Virus record (IMG/VR): IMGVR_UViG_3300027714_000122
Span: 1 to 23,719 of that record
Length of the DNA stretch: 23,719 nucleotides
Strand: one strand, 5' to 3'
DNA from: a virus
Shown here: piece after piece, positions 422 to 17,716 of the stretch
Layout: every line of letters starts with the position of its first letter
Numbering within the stretch: position 1 is the stretch's first letter
Position numbers and translations under genes: made by a program
Notes under the pieces: model-generated
Database searches by the model: none
What the model saw: only the letters and a program-made list of their open reading frames with translations
Told to the model about the DNA's origin: nothing

Positions 422-457
422 TAGGTTTAATTATAGTTAATTAGAAAGGGAAGCGAA

Positions 458-583
458 ATGAAAGTTAAGACAATTATTGTAGACTCAACTTCAAGGGCTT
501 GGAAGAAGGCACAGTTAAAACGTCATAAAGCAAAAGTTAGAAATGTCGGAAAGAAAATAAGTAAAGATCTAACAAATTATTAA
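458..583 (+). CDS. Small basic protein (41 aa)
   Basis: ATG at 458 preceded by a good ribosome-binding site (GAAAGGGAAG) and ended by TAA at 581-583. The 41-residue product is strongly basic, with Lys and Arg concentrated in the middle (WKKAQLKRHKAKVR, about residues 15-28). It begins with a short hydrophobic strand (TIIVD). The amphipathic basic helix could bind nucleic acid, but that is inference from composition only. It is the first gene after the promoter-like site at 386-421 and is followed 21 bases later by the next small gene. I do not recognise the family. Confidence 0.6.
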   Translation: MKVKTIIVDSTSRAWKKAQLKRHKAKVRNVGKKISKDLTNY

Positions 584-604
584 TCAACTGAGAAAGGAAG
601 TAAA

Positions 605-889
605 ATGGAAGTTTTTGTAAGTTCATATTTATATCGAGGAGAGTTGCCAAATGAAGCAACTCATCCAGATGAGGCTATTCAGGAAGCTTGGAATATAAAA
701 GCTGAAGATGCCAAAGGTTATCGTTATGTGTTGGATGGTTTTAATGTGGATTGTAAAGATAGTGCAGAGAAGCTTGAAGCAAAGATAAAAGCTCATTTGG
801 CTTCAGAAGGTAAGCTTAATCTTGATTATTGGACAGAGACTGAGCCTTGTTATGGTTCAGATGCGTATTGTGAAATGTATGGATTTTAA
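605..889 (+). CDS. Small acidic protein of unknown function (94 aa)
   Basis: ATG at 605 is preceded by GAGAAAGGAAG, a good ribosome-binding site. The product is soluble and mildly acidic, with a predicted strand start (MEVFVSSYLYRG), helical middle (DEAIQEAW and SAEKLEAKIKAHLASEG) and a Tyr/Cys-rich tail (CYGSDAYCEMYGF). No family recognised. The stop codon at 887-889 directly abuts the first strand of a hammerhead ribozyme (890-941), so its mRNA 3' end is probably set by ribozyme cleavage after 935. The tail (Y-G-x-D-x-Y pattern) loosely resembles the end of the next protein (969-1208), which might be a distant paralogue; the similarity is too weak to assert. Confidence 0.75.
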   Translation: MEVFVSSYLYRGELPNEATHPDEAIQEAWNIKAEDAKGYRYVLDGFNVDCKDSAEKLEAKIKAHLASEGKLNLDYWTETEPCYGSDAYCEMYGF

Positions 890-941
890 TTCGCACTGAT
901 GAGGGGGGTTGCTACCCCCCGAAACCCTCTGGGTCTGCGAA
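890..941 (+). ncRNA. Hammerhead ribozyme, type I, copy 1
   Basis: All core positions of the hammerhead are present in order. Stem I is TTCGCA 890-895 paired with TGCGAA 936-941 (6 bp). CTGATGA is at 896-902. Stem II is six G at 903-908 with six C at 915-920 and loop TTGCTA. GAAA is at 921-924. Stem III is CCC 925-927 with GGG 931-933 and loop TCT. U934 and C935 complete the GUC triplet, so cleavage is predicted between 935 and 936. The open end is stem I, making it type I. The 3-bp stem III is very short. Loop bases TTGC 909-912 can pair with GCAA 943-946. It starts at the base after the stop codon of the 605-889 gene. Recognised from the established consensus; activity not tested. Confidence 0.88.
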
Positions 942-946
942 AGCAA
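891..946 (+). repeat. Intergenic direct repeat, unit 1 (hammerhead region)
   Basis: This segment is repeated at 1209-1268. The 13 bases at 891-903 are identical to 1209-1221, and the roughly 29 bases from the end of stem II through the GCAA at 943-946 are identical to those ending at 1268. Only the stem II/loop region between them differs, and there the differences preserve pairing. The repeat is explained by the ribozyme plus a conserved GCAA extension. Confidence 0.9.
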
Positions 947-968
947 TAACAAAAAAGGAACTAAATTT

Positions 969-1208
969 ATGATAGTAGAAGTAAAAATAACTCTAGAGCT
1001 AGACGAGCCGAAGCCAAATGTTAATTATAGTTACATTGCTGAAGGGAGCGATCAAGAGAAAAGCGAAATTGCAAGTCAAACAAATCTAGCAATAATTAAT
1101 GCTGTGAAAGAAAAGTTAAATGAGTACGGAGCTGACGCTTTTCTGCAAGAAGATGATTATGGATATGATGGTTATGTAATAGATCATTCATTCCCATACG
1201 GACATTAA
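969..1208 (+). CDS. Small acidic protein flanked by two hammerhead ribozymes (79 aa)
   Basis: Start chosen at the ATG at 969, preceded by AAAAAAGGAA at a good distance. The in-frame TTG at 909 lies inside the ribozyme stem-loop and is unlikely to be used. The 79-aa product is acidic and soluble, with a strand (IVEVKITLEL), a helix (IINAVKEKLNEYG) and an aromatic, Asp-rich tail (DDYGYDGYVIDHSFPYGH). No family recognised. Its position is the notable point: hammerhead copies lie directly before its ribosome-binding site and directly after its stop codon. Cleavage at 935/936 and 1257/1258 would release a 322-nt RNA containing only this gene. Confidence 0.72.
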   Translation: MIVEVKITLELDEPKPNVNYSYIAEGSDQEKSEIASQTNLAIINAVKEKLNEYGADAFLQEDDYGYDGYVIDHSFPYGH

Positions 1209-1262
1209 TCGCACTGATGAGTGGTGGGGTTGCTCCCCACCCGAAACCCTCTGGGTCTGCGA
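1209..1262 (+). ncRNA. Hammerhead ribozyme, type I, copy 2
   Basis: Stem I is TCGCA 1209-1213 with TGCGA 1258-1262. CTGATGA is at 1214-1220. Stem II is G1221-C1242, a bulged T1222, then GGTGGGG 1223-1229 with CCCCACC 1235-1241. GAAA is at 1243-1246, stem III CCC 1247-1249 with GGG 1253-1255, and U1256 and C1257 precede the predicted cleavage. Relative to copy 1 the stem II sequence changes on both strands but still pairs, which supports selection on RNA structure. Loop TTGC 1230-1233 can again pair with GCAA 1265-1268. It starts at the base after the stop codon of the 969-1208 gene, and cleavage would leave a 28-nt leader before the ATG at 1286. Confidence 0.87.
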
Positions 1263-1268
1263 AAGCAA
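1209..1268 (+). repeat. Intergenic direct repeat, unit 2 (hammerhead region)
   Basis: Second copy of the repeat at 891-946, about 320 bases downstream. The two copies bracket one small gene, so this may have arisen by duplication of a gene-plus-ribozyme unit or by insertion of a ribozyme-bounded element. Confidence 0.9.
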
Positions 1269-1285
1269 TTTAGAAAGGAAGAAAA

Positions 1286-1477
1286 ATGGCATCCAAAAAA
1301 AAACCAGATTCAATCTACAAATACATTTGTAAAGATACACTCAACTCTAGGACTTTTAATTCATTTAAAAAAGTTAGAGAAAGTGTCGTTTCATTACCTA
1401 AAATACCAGAGAAATTTATTGCATCTAAAAATGATGATGAAAATATAATAGATATTAATAATGAGGGAGGAGATTAA
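1286..1477 (+). CDS. Small basic protein of unknown function (63 aa)
   Basis: ATG at 1286 follows AGAAAGGAAG, a good ribosome-binding site located just downstream of the second hammerhead's cleavage point. The product is Lys/Ser-rich with a basic first half (MASKKKPDSIYKYICKD) and an acidic Asn/Asp-rich tail (NDDENIIDINNEGGD). There is no membrane segment and no recognised domain. The stop lies one base before the start of the zinc-ribbon gene at 1479, so the two are probably translated together. Function unknown. Confidence 0.6.
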   Translation: MASKKKPDSIYKYICKDTLNSRTFNSFKKVRESVVSLPKIPEKFIASKNDDENIIDINNEGGD

Positions 1478-2304: not shown

Positions 2305-2772
2305 ATGGCAAAGAAAAAAAATCCAGTCGGTAGACCTAAGTTCGAGATCACTGATGAGGTTCTTGAGAAGACAGAACTCCTTATGGCAAAGGGTTTAACA
2401 GTAGAACAATGTGCAGGAATGCTAGGCATTTCTCCAGCAACTTTCTACAATAAACAACTAGAAAATTTGGAGTTTATGGAGACTATAAAAAGAGGTCAGG
2501 CTCTTGGGATTGATGCTGTGACCAATGCTTTGTTCGAGAATGCTACTGTAGAACGAGATAATACTGCGATTATTTTCTATCTTAAAAACAGAGCAGGGTG
2601 GGTAGATAAGCAAGAAATTCAAGCAACTGTCGAACAAAAACACGTTATCGATTTAACAAGGATACCTGATGAACAGCTCAAATCTATTGAAGCAGCATTT
2701 AGCAGGGCTGACGCTAGAGAAGGTGAAAGCGGAGCAATACCGCAGATCATTGAAGGCGTTTACAGCAGCTAG
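2305..2772 (+). CDS. terS: Terminase small subunit
   Basis: The small terminase subunit recognises viral DNA and hands it to the large subunit for packaging. The 155-aa protein starts at the ATG at 2305 after AAGAAAGGTTAGGA. A basic N-terminus with an AT-hook-like GRPK (9-12) precedes a helix-turn-helix (about 31-52, LTVEQCAGMLGISPATFY). A helical oligomerisation region and the phrase YLKNRAGW, typical of small-terminase proteins, follow. The acidic C-terminus would contact the large subunit. It comes directly before and overlaps the large-subunit gene. Family assignment rests on the HTH layout, the NRAGW motif and the neighbour; length is normal. Confidence 0.88.
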   Translation: MAKKKNPVGRPKFEITDEVLEKTELLMAKGLTVEQCAGMLGISPATFYNKQLENLEFMETIKRGQALGIDAVTNALFENATVERDNTAIIFYLKNRAGWVDKQEIQATVEQKHVIDLTRIPDEQLKSIEAAFSRADAREGESGAIPQIIEGVYSS

Positions 2773-4174
2773 TTGGGCTACAATCGAGCCTGGTGTGCCA
2801 TTCCTAAACAATTGGCACATTGATGCAATAAATGAGCACCTCCAAGCTGTGATCGAGGGTGATATCAAACGCCTGATCATCAATATACCTCCACGGCACA
2901 TGAAAAGCCTCTCGACTGCTGTATTACTTCCAGCATGGGCATGGACACGAGATCCGTCCATGAAGTTTATGTATGCATCTTACGCTGCCTCACTGTCGAT
3001 CAGAGATAGCACCAAGTGCCGTAGGTTGATTGAGAGCCCTTGGTATCAGGCTCACTTCCCAGATATTACCTTGACATCTGATCAAAATACCAAAGGTCGA
3101 TTTGAGAACTCTGCTACTGGATATCGTATAGCTACCTCAGTTGGGGCAGCAGCTACTGGAGATGGTGGTGACGTGGTGCTAATTGACGATCCTGCATCTG
3201 CAAGTGACGCTCAGTCTTCAGCTATGAGAACTTCTGTCATGGAGTGGTGGGATCAGACAATGCAGACACGTTTGAACGATCCAAAGACTGGTGCATTTAT
3301 TATCATTGCCCAGAGGCTTCATGAGCAAGATTTATGTGGTCATATACTCTCACAAGAGCTTGGTGATGACTGGGATCACCTTATGTTGCCCAGTCGCTAC
3401 GAAATAGGTCATCCTACGCCAGTCAGGTCATCTCTGGGGTTTACAGATCCAAGAACTAAGGAGGGTGAGCTTCTCTGGCCTGAACGCATGGATGAAAAGA
3501 CAGTATCTGACCTAGAACGCTCTCTGGGCTCTTATGCAGCTGCTGGTCAGCTCCAACAGCGTCCAGCTCCAAAGGGTGGTGGTATTCTCAAGGCTGAGTG
3601 GTGGGTTCCTTGGGAAAGTGATGACCTACCTGATATTGAGTATGTCCTACAGTCGTATGACACTGCATTCAGCACCAAAGAAACTGCCGACTACTCAGCT
3701 CGCACAACTTGGGGTGTTTTCAAAATGAACGGTCAAATGAATGCCATAGTTCTCGAAATGTGGTATGATCGAGTGAGCTATCCTGATCTCAGGAAAATGG
3801 CACAAGAATCATATGAGGAGTGGCAACCTGACACAATCCTGATCGAGAAACGAGCATCAGGTCAATCGTTGCTCCAAGATTTACGTCAATCTGGATTGCC
3901 TGTATTAGCCTACAATCCTGATCGAGACAAACAAGCACGAGCTCACGCATCGTCTGCACTTTTGGAAGACGGAAGAATTTGGTATCCAAAAGGAAAAAAG
4001 TGGTGTAAAACATTAATTGATACCTGTGCTCAATTTCCAAAAGGTCATGATGACTTGGTAGACACTTGCACTCAGGCTTGGTTAAGATTACGAAAAGGGT
4101 GGTTTGTAACTCACTCAAATGATTTTGATGAAGATGATTATGAAGAGAGAAAAAGGATAACTCTGTATGGCTAG
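2669..4174 (+). CDS. terL: Terminase large subunit (ATPase and nuclease)
   Basis: This is the packaging motor: an N-terminal ATPase pumps DNA through the portal and a C-terminal RNase H-fold nuclease cuts the concatemer. In 501 aa I see a Walker A-type PPRHMKSLS (74-82; Met takes the place of the usual Gly before Lys), Walker B VVLIDDP (169-175) and a coupling motif AQRLHEQD (214-221). The nuclease acidic residues are D331 in QSYDTAF, E393 in LIEKRASG and the HDD at 460-462. The ATG at 2669 overlaps the small-subunit gene by 104 bases. An AAGGA six bases upstream supports this start, and little of the ATPase fold would be lost at any later start. The portal gene overlaps its end by 8 bases, implying coupled translation. 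Confidence 0.95.
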   Translation: MNSSNLLKQHLAGLTLEKVKAEQYRRSLKAFTAASWATIEPGVPFLNNWHIDAINEHLQAVIEGDIKRLIINIPPRHMKSLSTAVLLPAWAWTRDPSMKFMYASYAASLSIRDSTKCRRLIESPWYQAHFPDITLTSDQNTKGRFENSATGYRIATSVGAAATGDGGDVVLIDDPASASDAQSSAMRTSVMEWWDQTMQTRLNDPKTGAFIIIAQRLHEQDLCGHILSQELGDDWDHLMLPSRYEIGHPTPVRSSLGFTDPRTKEGELLWPERMDEKTVSDLERSLGSYAAAGQLQQRPAPKGGGILKAEWWVPWESDDLPDIEYVLQSYDTAFSTKETADYSARTTWGVFKMNGQMNAIVLEMWYDRVSYPDLRKMAQESYEEWQPDTILIEKRASGQSLLQDLRQSGLPVLAYNPDRDKQARAHASSALLEDGRIWYPKGKKWCKTLIDTCAQFPKGHDDLVDTCTQAWLRLRKGWFVTHSNDFDEDDYEERKRITLYG

Positions 4175-6650
4175 AGAACCAGTTCCAATTCAACAATCCA
4201 TAGCTCCCTTTGCAGAAACAGCTCCTGCTGATGAACTGCAAGTTGAAGAAATTGGTGATGACGTTCTAATAGGAGATCCAGAGCTAGATAATATTGAAGA
4301 GATAGATACTAACTTTGATGCAAACCTTGCGGAAGATATGGATGAAAAAGAACTTAATAGTGCAGCATCAGAACTTATTTCATATTACAACAATGACCGT
4401 GAGGCTCGATCAGAGTGGGAAGAACGCTACAAAAAAGGGCTCAAGACTTTAGATCCTGATGGTGGTATGGAGGAATCAGAAGATGAACGTGCCACTCGTG
4501 GTTTATCCATAGTGGTGCATCCTATGATTGCAGAAGCTGCTACCCAGTTTAATGCAAAGGCTATTGCAGAGCTTTATCCTAGCGGTGGTCCAGTTAAGAC
4601 TGTGATTATTGGAGATCCTAATGAGGAGCTCGAAAATCAGTCTCGAAGAGTTCGTGAATATATGAACTACCAAATTACAAAGGAAATGCCTGAGTACTTT
4701 CCTGATTTGGATCAGATGTTATTTCATCTTCCGCTGGTGGGTCAAACTTTCAAGAAGGTTTGGTGGGACAGCAATATGGATCGCCAGTGCTCGCAGTTTG
4801 TAAAGGCTGAAGACTTTGTAGTGGCTCCTGAAAGCAAAGATCTCTACACCTCACCTCGATATACTCACGTTATTCGTATTCCTAAGAACGACTACAATCG
4901 ATACGTCCAGTCAGGTTATTATTTACCAAGTGACGATAAAGGTGGTGATATCGATCCATCTGGAGACACAATTGGTGAGATTGAGGGTGTTGATCAATAC
5001 GGTGATGATTCTCAAGATAACGTAATGACACTGCTGGAGATGCACGTTTATCGTAACTTTGAGGATGATAAATCTGACGATGATGATAACAATGTTGTTG
5101 GCATTCCTTATGTTGTCACTGTTGATTACGATAATGAGAATATTGTAAGCATACGCAGAAACTGGCGTGAAAATGACGATAAGAAGATGAGGAGAGACTG
5201 GTTTGTCTCTTATAAGTTCTTACCTGGTCTTGGGTTTTATGGCTTTGGCTTGTATCATCTCATTGGTGGGTTAGGCAAAGCAGCAACTGGATCTCTACGA
5301 GCTCTCTTAGATTCTGCAGCGTTTTCCAATATGCAGGGTGGATTTAAGTTACGAGGTCGAGTTTCAGGTGGTGAGGTTCAGGTTAACCCAGGTGAGTTTG
5401 TTGATCTTGATGCCACAGTTGACGATGTCAATAAAGCGATTATGCCACTGCCGTTTAAAGAACCCAGTAGTGCATTGTTTAATCTGCTTGGATTTATTGT
5501 AGACGCAGGGCAGAGATTTGCCAGCACTGCTGATTTGAATGTTGGGGACGTAAATCCAAATGCACCTGTTGGCTCAACAGTCGCACTTATTGAGCAAGGA
5601 TCAAAATCCTTCTCAGCGATTCACAAGAGGTTGCACTATGCACAGGGTCAAGAGTTTAAGCTGATCGCTGATCTTAATGCTGAAAACTTACCTGAGCAGT
5701 TTACGTTTTCGTTAATAGGCAGTAGTTCTGAAATATTCGCTGCTGACTTTAATGATCGCATTGATATCCTCCCAGTCAGTGACCCCAACATATTTAGTTC
5801 TGCCCAGCGGATTGCTCAAGCTCAAGCTATTTTGCAAATGGCTCAGTCGGCCCCTGAAATGCACGATATGTACGCTGCCTACAAACGTATGTATGAAGCT
5901 ATCCGAATACCAAATATTGATGAGATACTAAGAAAACCAGAAGACGCACCACGGATGGACCCAATTGATGAAAACATGGCAATCATGTATGGCAAGCCAA
6001 TTCGAGCATTTATTGAGCAGGAGCATGAATCTCACATTGCTGTTCATATGCAGTTTATTCAAGATCCATCATTGGGTGGAAACCCTGGTGCTCAACAGAT
6101 GCAGCCGATATTAATTGCTCACATAGCGGAGCACGTTGCGTTATTATATAGAACTCGTATGGAGGCTGGTGTTGGGGTTCCATTACCACCAGTTCCAAAC
6201 TTTGCAGATAAAGACTTTAAGTTTGAGGATATCAGTCCAGAGCTAGATAACTTAATTAGTCAACGTGCTGCTCAAGTGGTTCAGGAAGCTCCACAAATGA
6301 AGCAGATCGCTGCTATTACATCTCAAGGCAAACAGGAGCAACCTAATCCGCTACAATATGCCCAGCAACTTGCTCAGTTAGAGACTGAAGCTCTGAAGGC
6401 AAGGACGCAAGCACAAATTGCTGGAGATCAAGCTAAGGCTCAGTCTTCTATTCAGATCAAGCAAGCTGAAGCTCAACAAAAAATGCAGATAGATGCAGCA
6501 AAAGCTCAGGCAGATATGCAAGCTAAAATTCAGAAGTTAGAGGCTGAATTGCAAATTGAGCGTGAGAAAAATATGGCCAAGATGCAAATGGAACGAGAAA
6601 AGAATGCAGCGGAAATTCAGATGGAGGCTATAAAGAATGTTACCGAATAA
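4167..6650 (+). CDS. Portal protein, large podovirus type with helical C-terminus
   Basis: The portal forms the twelve-subunit ring at one capsid vertex through which DNA enters. The call rests on the position right after the large terminase and on the sequence: an acidic N-terminal arm (about 1-55), then SELISYYNNDREARSEWEER, a typical portal start, and the RGLSIVVHPMI and LPLVGQTFKKVWWD segments. The C-terminal ~130 residues are nearly uninterrupted, Gln/Ala/Lys/Glu-rich helix (heptad-like QAKAQSSIQIKQAEAQQKMQ), predicted to make a coiled coil. At 827 aa it is longer than most portals. P22-type portals (725 aa) also have a C-terminal helical barrel, and this may be a comparable one. AAGGA lies upstream of the ATG at 4167. 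Confidence 0.88.
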   Translation: MAREPVPIQQSIAPFAETAPADELQVEEIGDDVLIGDPELDNIEEIDTNFDANLAEDMDEKELNSAASELISYYNNDREARSEWEERYKKGLKTLDPDGGMEESEDERATRGLSIVVHPMIAEAATQFNAKAIAELYPSGGPVKTVIIGDPNEELENQSRRVREYMNYQITKEMPEYFPDLDQMLFHLPLVGQTFKKVWWDSNMDRQCSQFVKAEDFVVAPESKDLYTSPRYTHVIRIPKNDYNRYVQSGYYLPSDDKGGDIDPSGDTIGEIEGVDQYGDDSQDNVMTLLEMHVYRNFEDDKSDDDDNNVVGIPYVVTVDYDNENIVSIRRNWRENDDKKMRRDWFVSYKFLPGLGFYGFGLYHLIGGLGKAATGSLRALLDSAAFSNMQGGFKLRGRVSGGEVQVNPGEFVDLDATVDDVNKAIMPLPFKEPSSALFNLLGFIVDAGQRFASTADLNVGDVNPNAPVGSTVALIEQGSKSFSAIHKRLHYAQGQEFKLIADLNAENLPEQFTFSLIGSSSEIFAADFNDRIDILPVSDPNIFSSAQRIAQAQAILQMAQSAPEMHDMYAAYKRMYEAIRIPNIDEILRKPEDAPRMDPIDENMAIMYGKPIRAFIEQEHESHIAVHMQFIQDPSLGGNPGAQQMQPILIAHIAEHVALLYRTRMEAGVGVPLPPVPNFADKDFKFEDISPELDNLISQRAAQVVQEAPQMKQIAAITSQGKQEQPNPLQYAQQLAQLETEALKARTQAQIAGDQAKAQSSIQIKQAEAQQKMQIDAAKAQADMQAKIQKLEAELQIEREKNMAKMQMEREKNAAEIQMEAIKNVTE

Positions 6651-16115: not shown

Positions 16116-17024
16116 ATGGCGATGAATAGAGCACAATTTGCTAAAATGCTTGAGCCAGGACTGAATACTCTTTTCGGTCTTGAATACGATAGCTATCCAC
16201 CAGAATACGCACAGGTATTCTCTTCAAACAGTTCAAATAAAGCTTATGAAGAAGATGTCTTGTTGCAAGGTTTTGGTTCTGCACCAACAAAAGATGAAGG
16301 TGCTAGTGTTTCATATGATACTGGTAGTCAACAATGGACTGCACGTTATCAGCATGAGACAATCGCTTTGGCGTTCTCAATTACTGAGGAAGCTGAAGAG
16401 GATGGCCAATATGGTTCGATTGCTTCTCGTTATACAAAGGCACTTGCACGTTCAATGGCTTCCACTAAGGAAATCAAAGCTGCGAATGTTTTAAATGACG
16501 CACAGACAGCTGGTGTAACTGGTGGTGACGGTGTTGTACTTTTAAGTGCATCTCACCCAACTACTAATGGGAACCAGTCCAACGTGTTAGCAACTGCTGC
16601 TGATTTATCTGAAACTTCACTTGAATCCATTCTTATTCAAATTGCGGATATGAAAGATGATCGTGGACTACGGATTGCAGCACAAGGTACACAGTTGATT
16701 ATTCCAACTGCCTATACCTTTGTTGCAGAGCGTCTGTTGGAATCACAGCTCCGTACTGGAACTGCTGATAATGATATCAACGCTATTAAGTCAGGTGGTT
16801 ATCTACCTAAAGGCTACCATATCATGAGAAGACTTTCTGATGCGGATGCTTTCTTTGTTCAGACGGATGTTCCTGACGGACTAAAGATGTTCCAAAGAAG
16901 CCCAATGAAAAAGGGCATGGAAGGCGATTTCGAGACTGGTAATGTTCGCTACAAAGTTCGTGAACGGTATAGCTTTGGCGTAACCGATTGGCGTGGTATA
17001 TTTGGCACAGAAGGTGCTGCATAA
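16116..17024 (+). CDS. Major capsid protein (HK97-fold type)
   Basis: Start at 16116 after AGGAGGGTATGAAAA. The 302-aa protein opens with NRAQFAKMLEPGLNTLFGLE and has a DYDTGSQQWTARYQ-like strand region, here VSYDTGSQQWTARYQHETIA. The central helix (EEDGQYGSIASRYTKALARS) resembles the spine helix of the HK97 capsid fold. The end, FVQTDVPDGLKMFQRSPMKK then EGDFETGNVRYKVRERYSFG, is a highly typical C-terminal (A-domain) signature of phage major head proteins. Position after scaffold and decoration genes supports the call. It is followed by a hairpin plus T run (17033-17064), which may reduce downstream transcription. Confidence 0.92.
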   Translation: MAMNRAQFAKMLEPGLNTLFGLEYDSYPPEYAQVFSSNSSNKAYEEDVLLQGFGSAPTKDEGASVSYDTGSQQWTARYQHETIALAFSITEEAEEDGQYGSIASRYTKALARSMASTKEIKAANVLNDAQTAGVTGGDGVVLLSASHPTTNGNQSNVLATAADLSETSLESILIQIADMKDDRGLRIAAQGTQLIIPTAYTFVAERLLESQLRTGTADNDINAIKSGGYLPKGYHIMRRLSDADAFFVQTDVPDGLKMFQRSPMKKGMEGDFETGNVRYKVRERYSFGVTDWRGIFGTEGAA

Positions 17025-17064: not shown

Positions 17065-17107
17065 ATCCTGACAGCGAAAGCTGACTTATCCCAGACAGGA
17101 GATCACC

Positions 17108-17716
17108 ATGGGTAACACTACATTTACAGGAGCAGTACGCTCCGAAAACGGCTTTCAAGACGTTACAAAGAATGCAACGACTGGAGCTTACACAACAAAT
17201 TCTACATATAATAACGACGCTACTATTGGTGGAAACTTAACAGTTGCAGGTTCTGTATTTTCAGGTGGGATGCCCACTTTAGGTGGACTTACTGTAACGG
17301 CAAAAGCCACATCTGGCACTGTTTCTTATGTTGCTGGAATTAACATCAATCCATTCACTGGAGGAGCACAACAGATTACTACTCTTCCTGCTGCGACAGT
17401 TGGCGTTGTGTGTATTCACGCTCAGTCGGTAGACACTACGGGGGGAACTGCTTTCCTTAGTTTTGATTGTGCAGGTAGCGATGCTTATGAAACAGGTAGT
17501 ATTATGGAGAGTCGTACAAGTGCTGCGGTCACGTTTGATGCCTCTACCGCAGGAGAAACTCTGTTAAAGTTCACTCCTGCTAACGCAACAACAAATTTAA
17601 TGAGCATTGGTTCTTACATCTATTTTACTTGCACCACAGCAGGTTTGTGGAATGTTTCGTACAATCTTCAAGGTCTTGGAGCAGCTACTACAGGCACGTT
17701 TGTTTTCGCAGCCTAA
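17108..17716 (+). CDS. Probable virion structural protein (202 aa)
   Basis: ATG at 17108 after AGGAGATCACC. The product is beta-rich, Thr/Gly/Ala-rich and opens with NTTFTGAVRSENGFQDVTKN, a start shared by many marine phage structural proteins. An early GGNLTVAGSVFSGG segment resembles the beta-solenoid stalks of fibres, and the rest (about 70-202) appears to be a compact beta domain ending in FVFAA. It is made from a leader with two small hairpins. Possible roles: head fibre or capsid-associated protein. No enzymatic motif. Confidence 0.72.
   Translation: MGNTTFTGAVRSENGFQDVTKNATTGAYTTNSTYNNDATIGGNLTVAGSVFSGGMPTLGGLTVTAKATSGTVSYVAGININPFTGGAQQITTLPAATVGVVCIHAQSVDTTGGTAFLSFDCAGSDAYETGSIMESRTSAAVTFDASTAGETLLKFTPANATTNLMSIGSYIYFTCTTAGLWNVSYNLQGLGAATTGTFVFAA

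Follow-up and report, generated by a model that had tools for sequence, protein, structure and literature searches.

Tandem type I hammerhead ribozymes predicted between small genes of an uncultured marine-type phage belong to a clade placed at gene junctions

Two elements lying between small co-directional genes of a phage have the sequence, fold, covariation and fixed placement of type I hammerhead ribozymes, and they probably cleave themselves and so split an operon transcript into one-gene or few-gene mRNAs. Both were found in the window, which is the whole stretch of DNA analysed here (23,719 nt; IMG/VR record IMGVR_UViG_3300027714_000122, positions 1 to 23,719). The window is a contig of a marine-type phage. 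At the DNA level its nearest isolates are Roseobacter phages CRP-901 and CRP-902, which match it at about 68% in the terminase region. A block of small co-directional genes, most of which fall in no known family, lies upstream of terminase, and both hammerhead-shaped elements sit within it, as the original prediction had placed them, between the ORFs at 605-889, 969-1208 and 1286-1477 and 5' of the terminase genes at 2305-4174. The small-gene unit likely ends at a terminator-like hairpin that precedes the gene for the terminase small subunit. The relevant features of the window are as follows.

605 to 889 (+), ORF of 94 aa upstream of ribozyme 1, with stop codon TAA at 887-889 and a weak match to phrog_1507 (function unknown)
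890 to 946 (+), putative type I hammerhead ribozyme, copy 1, with predicted cleavage at 935/936 (C17 is C935)
951 to 971 (+), Shine-Dalgarno-like AAAAAAGGAA and start codon ATG at 969-971, the ATG 33 nt downstream of cut 1
969 to 1208 (+), ORF of 79 aa between both ribozymes, of no known family, with stop codon TAA at 1206-1208
1209 to 1268 (+), putative type I hammerhead ribozyme, copy 2, with predicted cleavage at 1257/1258 (C17 is C1257)
1271 to 1288 (+), Shine-Dalgarno-like TAGAAAGGAA and start codon ATG at 1286-1288, the ATG 28 nt downstream of cut 2
1286 to 1477 (+), ORF of 63 aa downstream of ribozyme 2, conserved in related loci L020 and L022
2220 to 2247 (+), likely intrinsic terminator, a 7-pair stem and then TTTCTTTTTT
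2305 to 2772, terminase small subunit
2669 to 4174, terminase large subunit
4167 to 6650, portal
16116 to 17024, Mu gpT-like head protein

Other features of the contig include a Pam3 gp32-like protein (PF23992) at its start (4-366) and, within the small-gene block, a 68-aa protein with an NrdR-like zinc ribbon (PF22811; 1461-1667). A match to the Mu-gpT-DE RNA (RF03012) at 17066-17110 (+) scores 41.9 bits (gathering score 49; E 1.1e-6). It lies directly 3' of the Mu gpT-like major head gene (16116-17024), and because it fits this context it is probably a real distant member.

In both copies the core CUGANGA ... GAA ... U-H occurs in order around three stems, and both are of type I, with stem I open-ended and loops closing stems II and III. 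The parts of each copy, including a pseudoknot in which loop II pairs with the bases immediately 3' of stem I, are listed below.

Copy 1, stem I: UUCGCA 890-895 with UGCGAA 936-941
Copy 1, core: CUGAUGA 896-902 and GAA 921-923
Copy 1, stem II: GGGGGG 903-908 with CCCCCC 915-920, loop UUGCUA
Copy 1, stem III: ACCC-UCU-GGGU 924-934 (924-927 with 931-934)
Copy 1, pseudoknot: loop II UUGCU 909-913 (+), the 5' partner, with AGCAA 942-946 (+)
Copy 2, stem I: UCGCA 1209-1213 with UGCGA 1258-1262
Copy 2, core: CUGAUGA 1214-1220 and GAA 1243-1245
Copy 2, stem II: G1221-C1242, bulged U1222, then GGUGGGG 1223-1229 with CCCCACC 1235-1241, loop UUGCU
Copy 2, stem III: 1246-1256 (1246-1249 with 1253-1256)
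Copy 2, pseudoknot: loop II UUGCU 1230-1234 (+), the 5' partner, with AGCAA 1264-1268 (+)

These recomputed positions agree with what had been read from the letters, namely every core element in order in both copies, a stem II of six G-C pairs in copy 1 and of GGTGGGG/CCCCACC plus a G-C pair around a bulged T in copy 2, and predicted cleavage at 935/936 and 1257/1258. The hammerhead is the minimum-energy structure of copy 1 and lies 0.5 kcal/mol above a rival fold for copy 2, the energy of the pseudoknot not being counted. In longer context, the minimum-energy folds from a program that cannot model the pseudoknot lack stem I, and its 3' strand forms a UGC-GAAA-GCA hairpin. Many relatives (L002, L014, L018, L046 and others) carry an extra U between core A9 and stem II (CUGAUGA-U-G...); in the window, the additional U of copy 2 is bulged out past the first stem II pair, and copy 1 has no such U at either place.

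Rfam 15 gave no hammerhead match in the whole window at E 1 and no match for 860-1300 at E 10. Run alone, neither Hammerhead_1 (RF00163) nor Hammerhead_3 (RF00008) matched the window elements; neither copy reached the gathering threshold of these two models, and no match appeared up to E 10. Likewise, the pseudoknotted type I ribozymes of the window, L002, L014, L018, L046, L203 and L222 had no Rfam hammerhead match, relaxed thresholds included. Because Rfam gave no hammerhead match, covariance models were built from relatives. Model R3, which was made from other phages only and excludes both the window itself and any member that shares its stem II, scores copy 1 at 57.2 bits (E 7.5e-14) and copy 2 at 62.6 bits (E 2.2e-15). 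A third ribozyme in the window was sought with R3, and the next-best place reached 10.7 bits (E 0.88), which is chance level. Given that an independently built model separates the two copies so far from the next-best place, a chance match is ruled out for both. The covariance check offered with the original prediction had named the Rfam models and counted the lack of a match as refutation; those models indeed return nothing, whereas the dedicated model matches both copies at about 1e-14. Moreover, Rfam detects other ribozymes in related loci (Twister-P5 in L015, a type III hammerhead in L202 and weak matches in L221 and L167). Since the dedicated model detects both copies and Rfam is able to find these other ribozymes, we conclude that the missing Rfam match reflects a gap in the Rfam models.

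DNA-pattern scans of viral contigs, combined with a structure filter, yielded at least 127 matches at at least 94 distinct loci, with at least 61 distinct sequences; a minority of the 94 loci are other hammerhead subtypes or chance matches that passed the same filter (e.g., L015, L167, L187 and L245). Stem I varies in compensated form (CGCA/UGCG, CCUA/UAGG, CCAA/UUGG, CGCC/GGCG and CCCA/UGGG), and some members have a 19-nt stem II. When 24 relatives were aligned in one register, 98% of cells paired across the 21-pair structure, 11 of the 21 pairs had changed on both sides, and none of 500 shuffles reached the covariation score. When the partners were shifted by 1-3 columns, pairing fell to 38-52%. 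The both-side changes in this alignment include 2 pairs of stem I and 7 of stem II; stem III is invariant there and shows one both-side change in alignment A1. The proposed hammerhead identity is thus backed by covariation across many phages. The relatives come from viral contigs: a blastn search of isolated phages with four representatives gave no match, the full CRP-901 and CRP-902 genomes contain no such ribozyme, and none of 18 pattern matches in bacterial genomes was supported by the covariance model.

The pseudoknot had been overlooked in the original prediction. As one large scan fixed UUGCU and AGCAA by its pattern, loops without UUGC were tested separately. The mean longest loop/tail helix of 25 such loops was 3.6, compared to 2.94 after shuffling, and 0 of 2000 shuffles gave a value as high. 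Compensatory changes also occur in relatives (UAGUU/AACUA, UGGUU/AACCA, UGAUU/AAUCA and GGCUA/UAGCC); the pseudoknot is missing in L167 and in one L221 copy. Its covariation supports a tertiary contact between the stem II loop and the stem I region, and the 5-bp helix formed by loop II with the strand just 3' of stem I would stabilise docking of stems I and II. Pseudoknots between stems I and II are known in all three hammerhead types, occur in about 40% of clustered prophage hammerheads, type I included, and have been shown by mutation and compensation to be important for speed (PMC3088659).

Placement between genes follows a constant layout of stop codon, 0-2 nt, ribozyme, Shine-Dalgarno site and, 22-38 nt after the cut, start codon. 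Among the matches listed, 67 of 88 ribozymes have the stop codon of an ORF of at least 25 codons 4-7 nt before CUGAUGA, which is 0-2 nt from stem I, compared to a stop codon 4-7 nt upstream at 4 of 177 other CUGAUGA sites on the same contigs. A downstream ORF start is present in 90 of 94, again among the matches listed, in most cases 22-38 nt past the cut and almost without exception accompanied by a Shine-Dalgarno-like site, and the flanking proteins are small (medians of 94 and 88 aa). This placement is what would be expected if the cut serves to leave two translatable messages. The window conforms; the two successive stop codons said to precede the pair turned out to be a single TAA before each copy (887-889 and 1206-1208). 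Nor is a tandem pair unusual, as had been supposed: two or more co-directional hammerheads flank small phage genes in the window and in at least six related records (L125, L126, L127, L132, L150 and L217), and clustered prophage hammerheads were already described (PMC3088659). Mixed neighbours occur as well. At L015 (10868-11219), two ribozyme classes adjoin, a Twister-P5 being preceded at a distance of about 250 nt by a hammerhead-like element that has no pseudoknot. L202 (644-1004) has hammerheads of mixed type in tandem, about 260 nt apart: one of type I and one of type III, the latter scoring 37.9 bits with Rfam, which is below gathering.

Hammerhead cleavage is an internal transesterification that leaves a 2',3'-cyclic phosphate and a 5'-hydroxyl (PMC6155905), and from this established chemistry we infer the same reaction and end groups at both copies. 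Both would lie in one co-directional transcript ending at the 2220-2247 terminator, and each would cut after GUC, at C935 and C1257. The upstream message would then end soon after its stop codon, in a structured ribozyme bearing the 2',3'-cyclic phosphate, and the downstream message would start with a 5'-hydroxyl, keep its ribosome site intact and reach its start codon after 28-33 nt. Separation of the operon RNA into distinct mRNAs would leave neighbours free to differ in stability and translation; this effect on gene expression is a prediction. That the RNA is split in cells after C935 and C1257 is suggested by analogy with clustered prophage hammerheads, which cleave in vitro (Perreault et al., 2011; PMC3088659). 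Expression in E. coli showed in vivo cleavage of one Agrobacterium cluster, and a halovirus transcript has its 5' end within 3 nt of a hammerhead site (PMC3088659). What purpose hammerheads serve in phages is an open question (PMC6155905).

It is possible, though not likely, that active ribozymes were selected mainly for the stability of RNA ends and that gene separation is a by-product. The GC-rich remnant would guard the upstream 3' end, and the 5'-hydroxyl, together with a GNRA-like hairpin in some copies, would guard the downstream message. Since 0-2 nt separate the stop codon from stem I, the entire 3' UTR would consist of the structured remnant, and the 3' products of the window would start with UGC-GAAA-GCA, as this explanation would have it. 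However, the 5' hairpin is not conserved, and relatives with UAGG or UUGG in stem I cannot form it yet keep the pseudoknot. UGC-GAAA-GCA, tried as a conserved 5' hairpin of the downstream product, was rejected because UAGG and UUGG members have lost it. The tight spacing, with the stop codon 4-7 nt before the core at most loci, would also suit a translation-gated switch, in which the terminating ribosome masks stem I and cleavage occurs mainly when the upstream gene is untranslated. The same conserved spacing may reflect just the compactness of phage genomes, however, and we consider such gating distinctly unlikely. Release of separate messages by self-cleavage is the reading that we retain.

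Comparison of loci indicates that these ribozymes move. The exact 22-nt stem-loop II of copy 2 was found at at least 20 loci, between at least about 15 pairs of flanking gene families, which implies that the module moves; because it is identical across loci although other stem II sequences fill the same role elsewhere, its spread appears recent. Family F1 lies upstream of at least seven different families at ribozyme junctions, and homologues of the 605-889 ORF (family F7) occur downstream of a hammerhead in L118, L125 and L135. Loci L003, L004, L006 and L008 display all four combinations of two upstream with two downstream genes, the upstream gene of L008 being known for 29 nt only. In the close relative L007, the sequence up to copy 1 has 98% identity to the window, the 79-aa ORF that the window carries between the copies (969-1208) is absent, and what follows corresponds to the window after copy 2. 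Its stem II is a hybrid, the 5' arm resembling copy 1 and the 3' arm copy 2, as exchange between ribozymes would produce. L020 and L022 have a terminase 98% identical to that of the window and yet no ribozyme in the small-gene block, implying that the ribozyme is dispensable. In these two loci the whole small-gene cassette is replaced (window 449-1268 versus L020 1573-2249), and the match to the window begins again at 1268, where copy 2 ends; the 63-aa ORF (1286-1477) is kept, with different upstream genes. Under strict criteria, no gene pair was found both with and without a ribozyme; in a looser case, the upstream gene of L003 has an L002 homologue with no ribozyme after it, and the next genes differ.

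These patterns admit the tentative and, in our judgement, unlikely proposal that the hammerheads are exchangeable joint-and-cut modules passed between gene junctions by recombination. Another reading, in which the DNA repeats are mainly recombination joints for swapping small genes and RNA cleavage is incidental, could draw on the same 22-nt stem-loop II between at least about 15 gene-family pairs, on the four gene combinations and on L007 with its hybrid stem II and no intervening gene. It is improbable, however, since the compensatory changes imply selection on an RNA fold that a DNA joint does not need, and a change of partner is no commoner at ribozyme junctions than elsewhere. Ribozyme junctions were examined as recombination hotspots and rejected as such: the downstream neighbour is conserved at 57% of them, compared to 59% at other small-gene gaps of at least 20 nt. 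Gene shuffling thus characterises the region as a whole, with no enrichment at ribozymes. Finally, it is extremely improbable that the hairpins resemble hammerheads by accident and serve to attenuate transcription or to bind a protein, for although stem II is GC-rich, no U-run follows either element, a terminator search lists none there, and every core letter, together with the pseudoknot, persists through dozens of unrelated gene contexts.

Hammerhead clusters around small phage genes have been described before (PMC3088659; reviewed in PMC6155905); in phage DNA, Perreault et al. (2011) found several hammerheads flanking a single gene or a short run of small genes (PMC3088659). The window resembles that set in its multiple copies around small phage genes and in its stem I/II pseudoknots, type I included. 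Unlike that set, the window's clade comes from uncultured phages distantly related to CRP-901 and CRP-902, and its fixed spacing of stop codon, ribozyme and Shine-Dalgarno site is measured here. Hammerhead_1 (RF00163) shares the type I order of parts and the core; compared to that model, the clade has a short stem I, a stem III of 3-4 bp and the 5-bp loop II/tail pseudoknot, and RF00163 matched none of five clade records at E up to 10. Hammerhead_3 (RF00008) and the RAGATH-1 hammerhead (RF03152) have the same catalytic core, but type III hammerheads open at stem III, unlike those of the window, which neither model matches; Rfam finds weak members near some relatives (L202 and L221). Twister-P5 (RF02684) is likewise self-cleaving and found in phage gene clusters, with an unrelated fold. 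As far as we have searched, the clade, its invisibility to Rfam and the quantified placement are new, with a possible overlap with the supplementary alignment of the 2011 study (PMC3088659), and so is the finding that one ribozyme sequence has spread to gene pairs that are unrelated to each other.

The findings suggest that Rfam scans undercount phage hammerheads. If the ribozymes were indeed joint-and-cut modules, a newly acquired small gene would bring its own cutter and would have an independent message wherever it landed. The clade provides a large comparative set with a fixed placement between stop codon and ribosome site, which makes the idea that phage hammerheads process mRNA directly testable.
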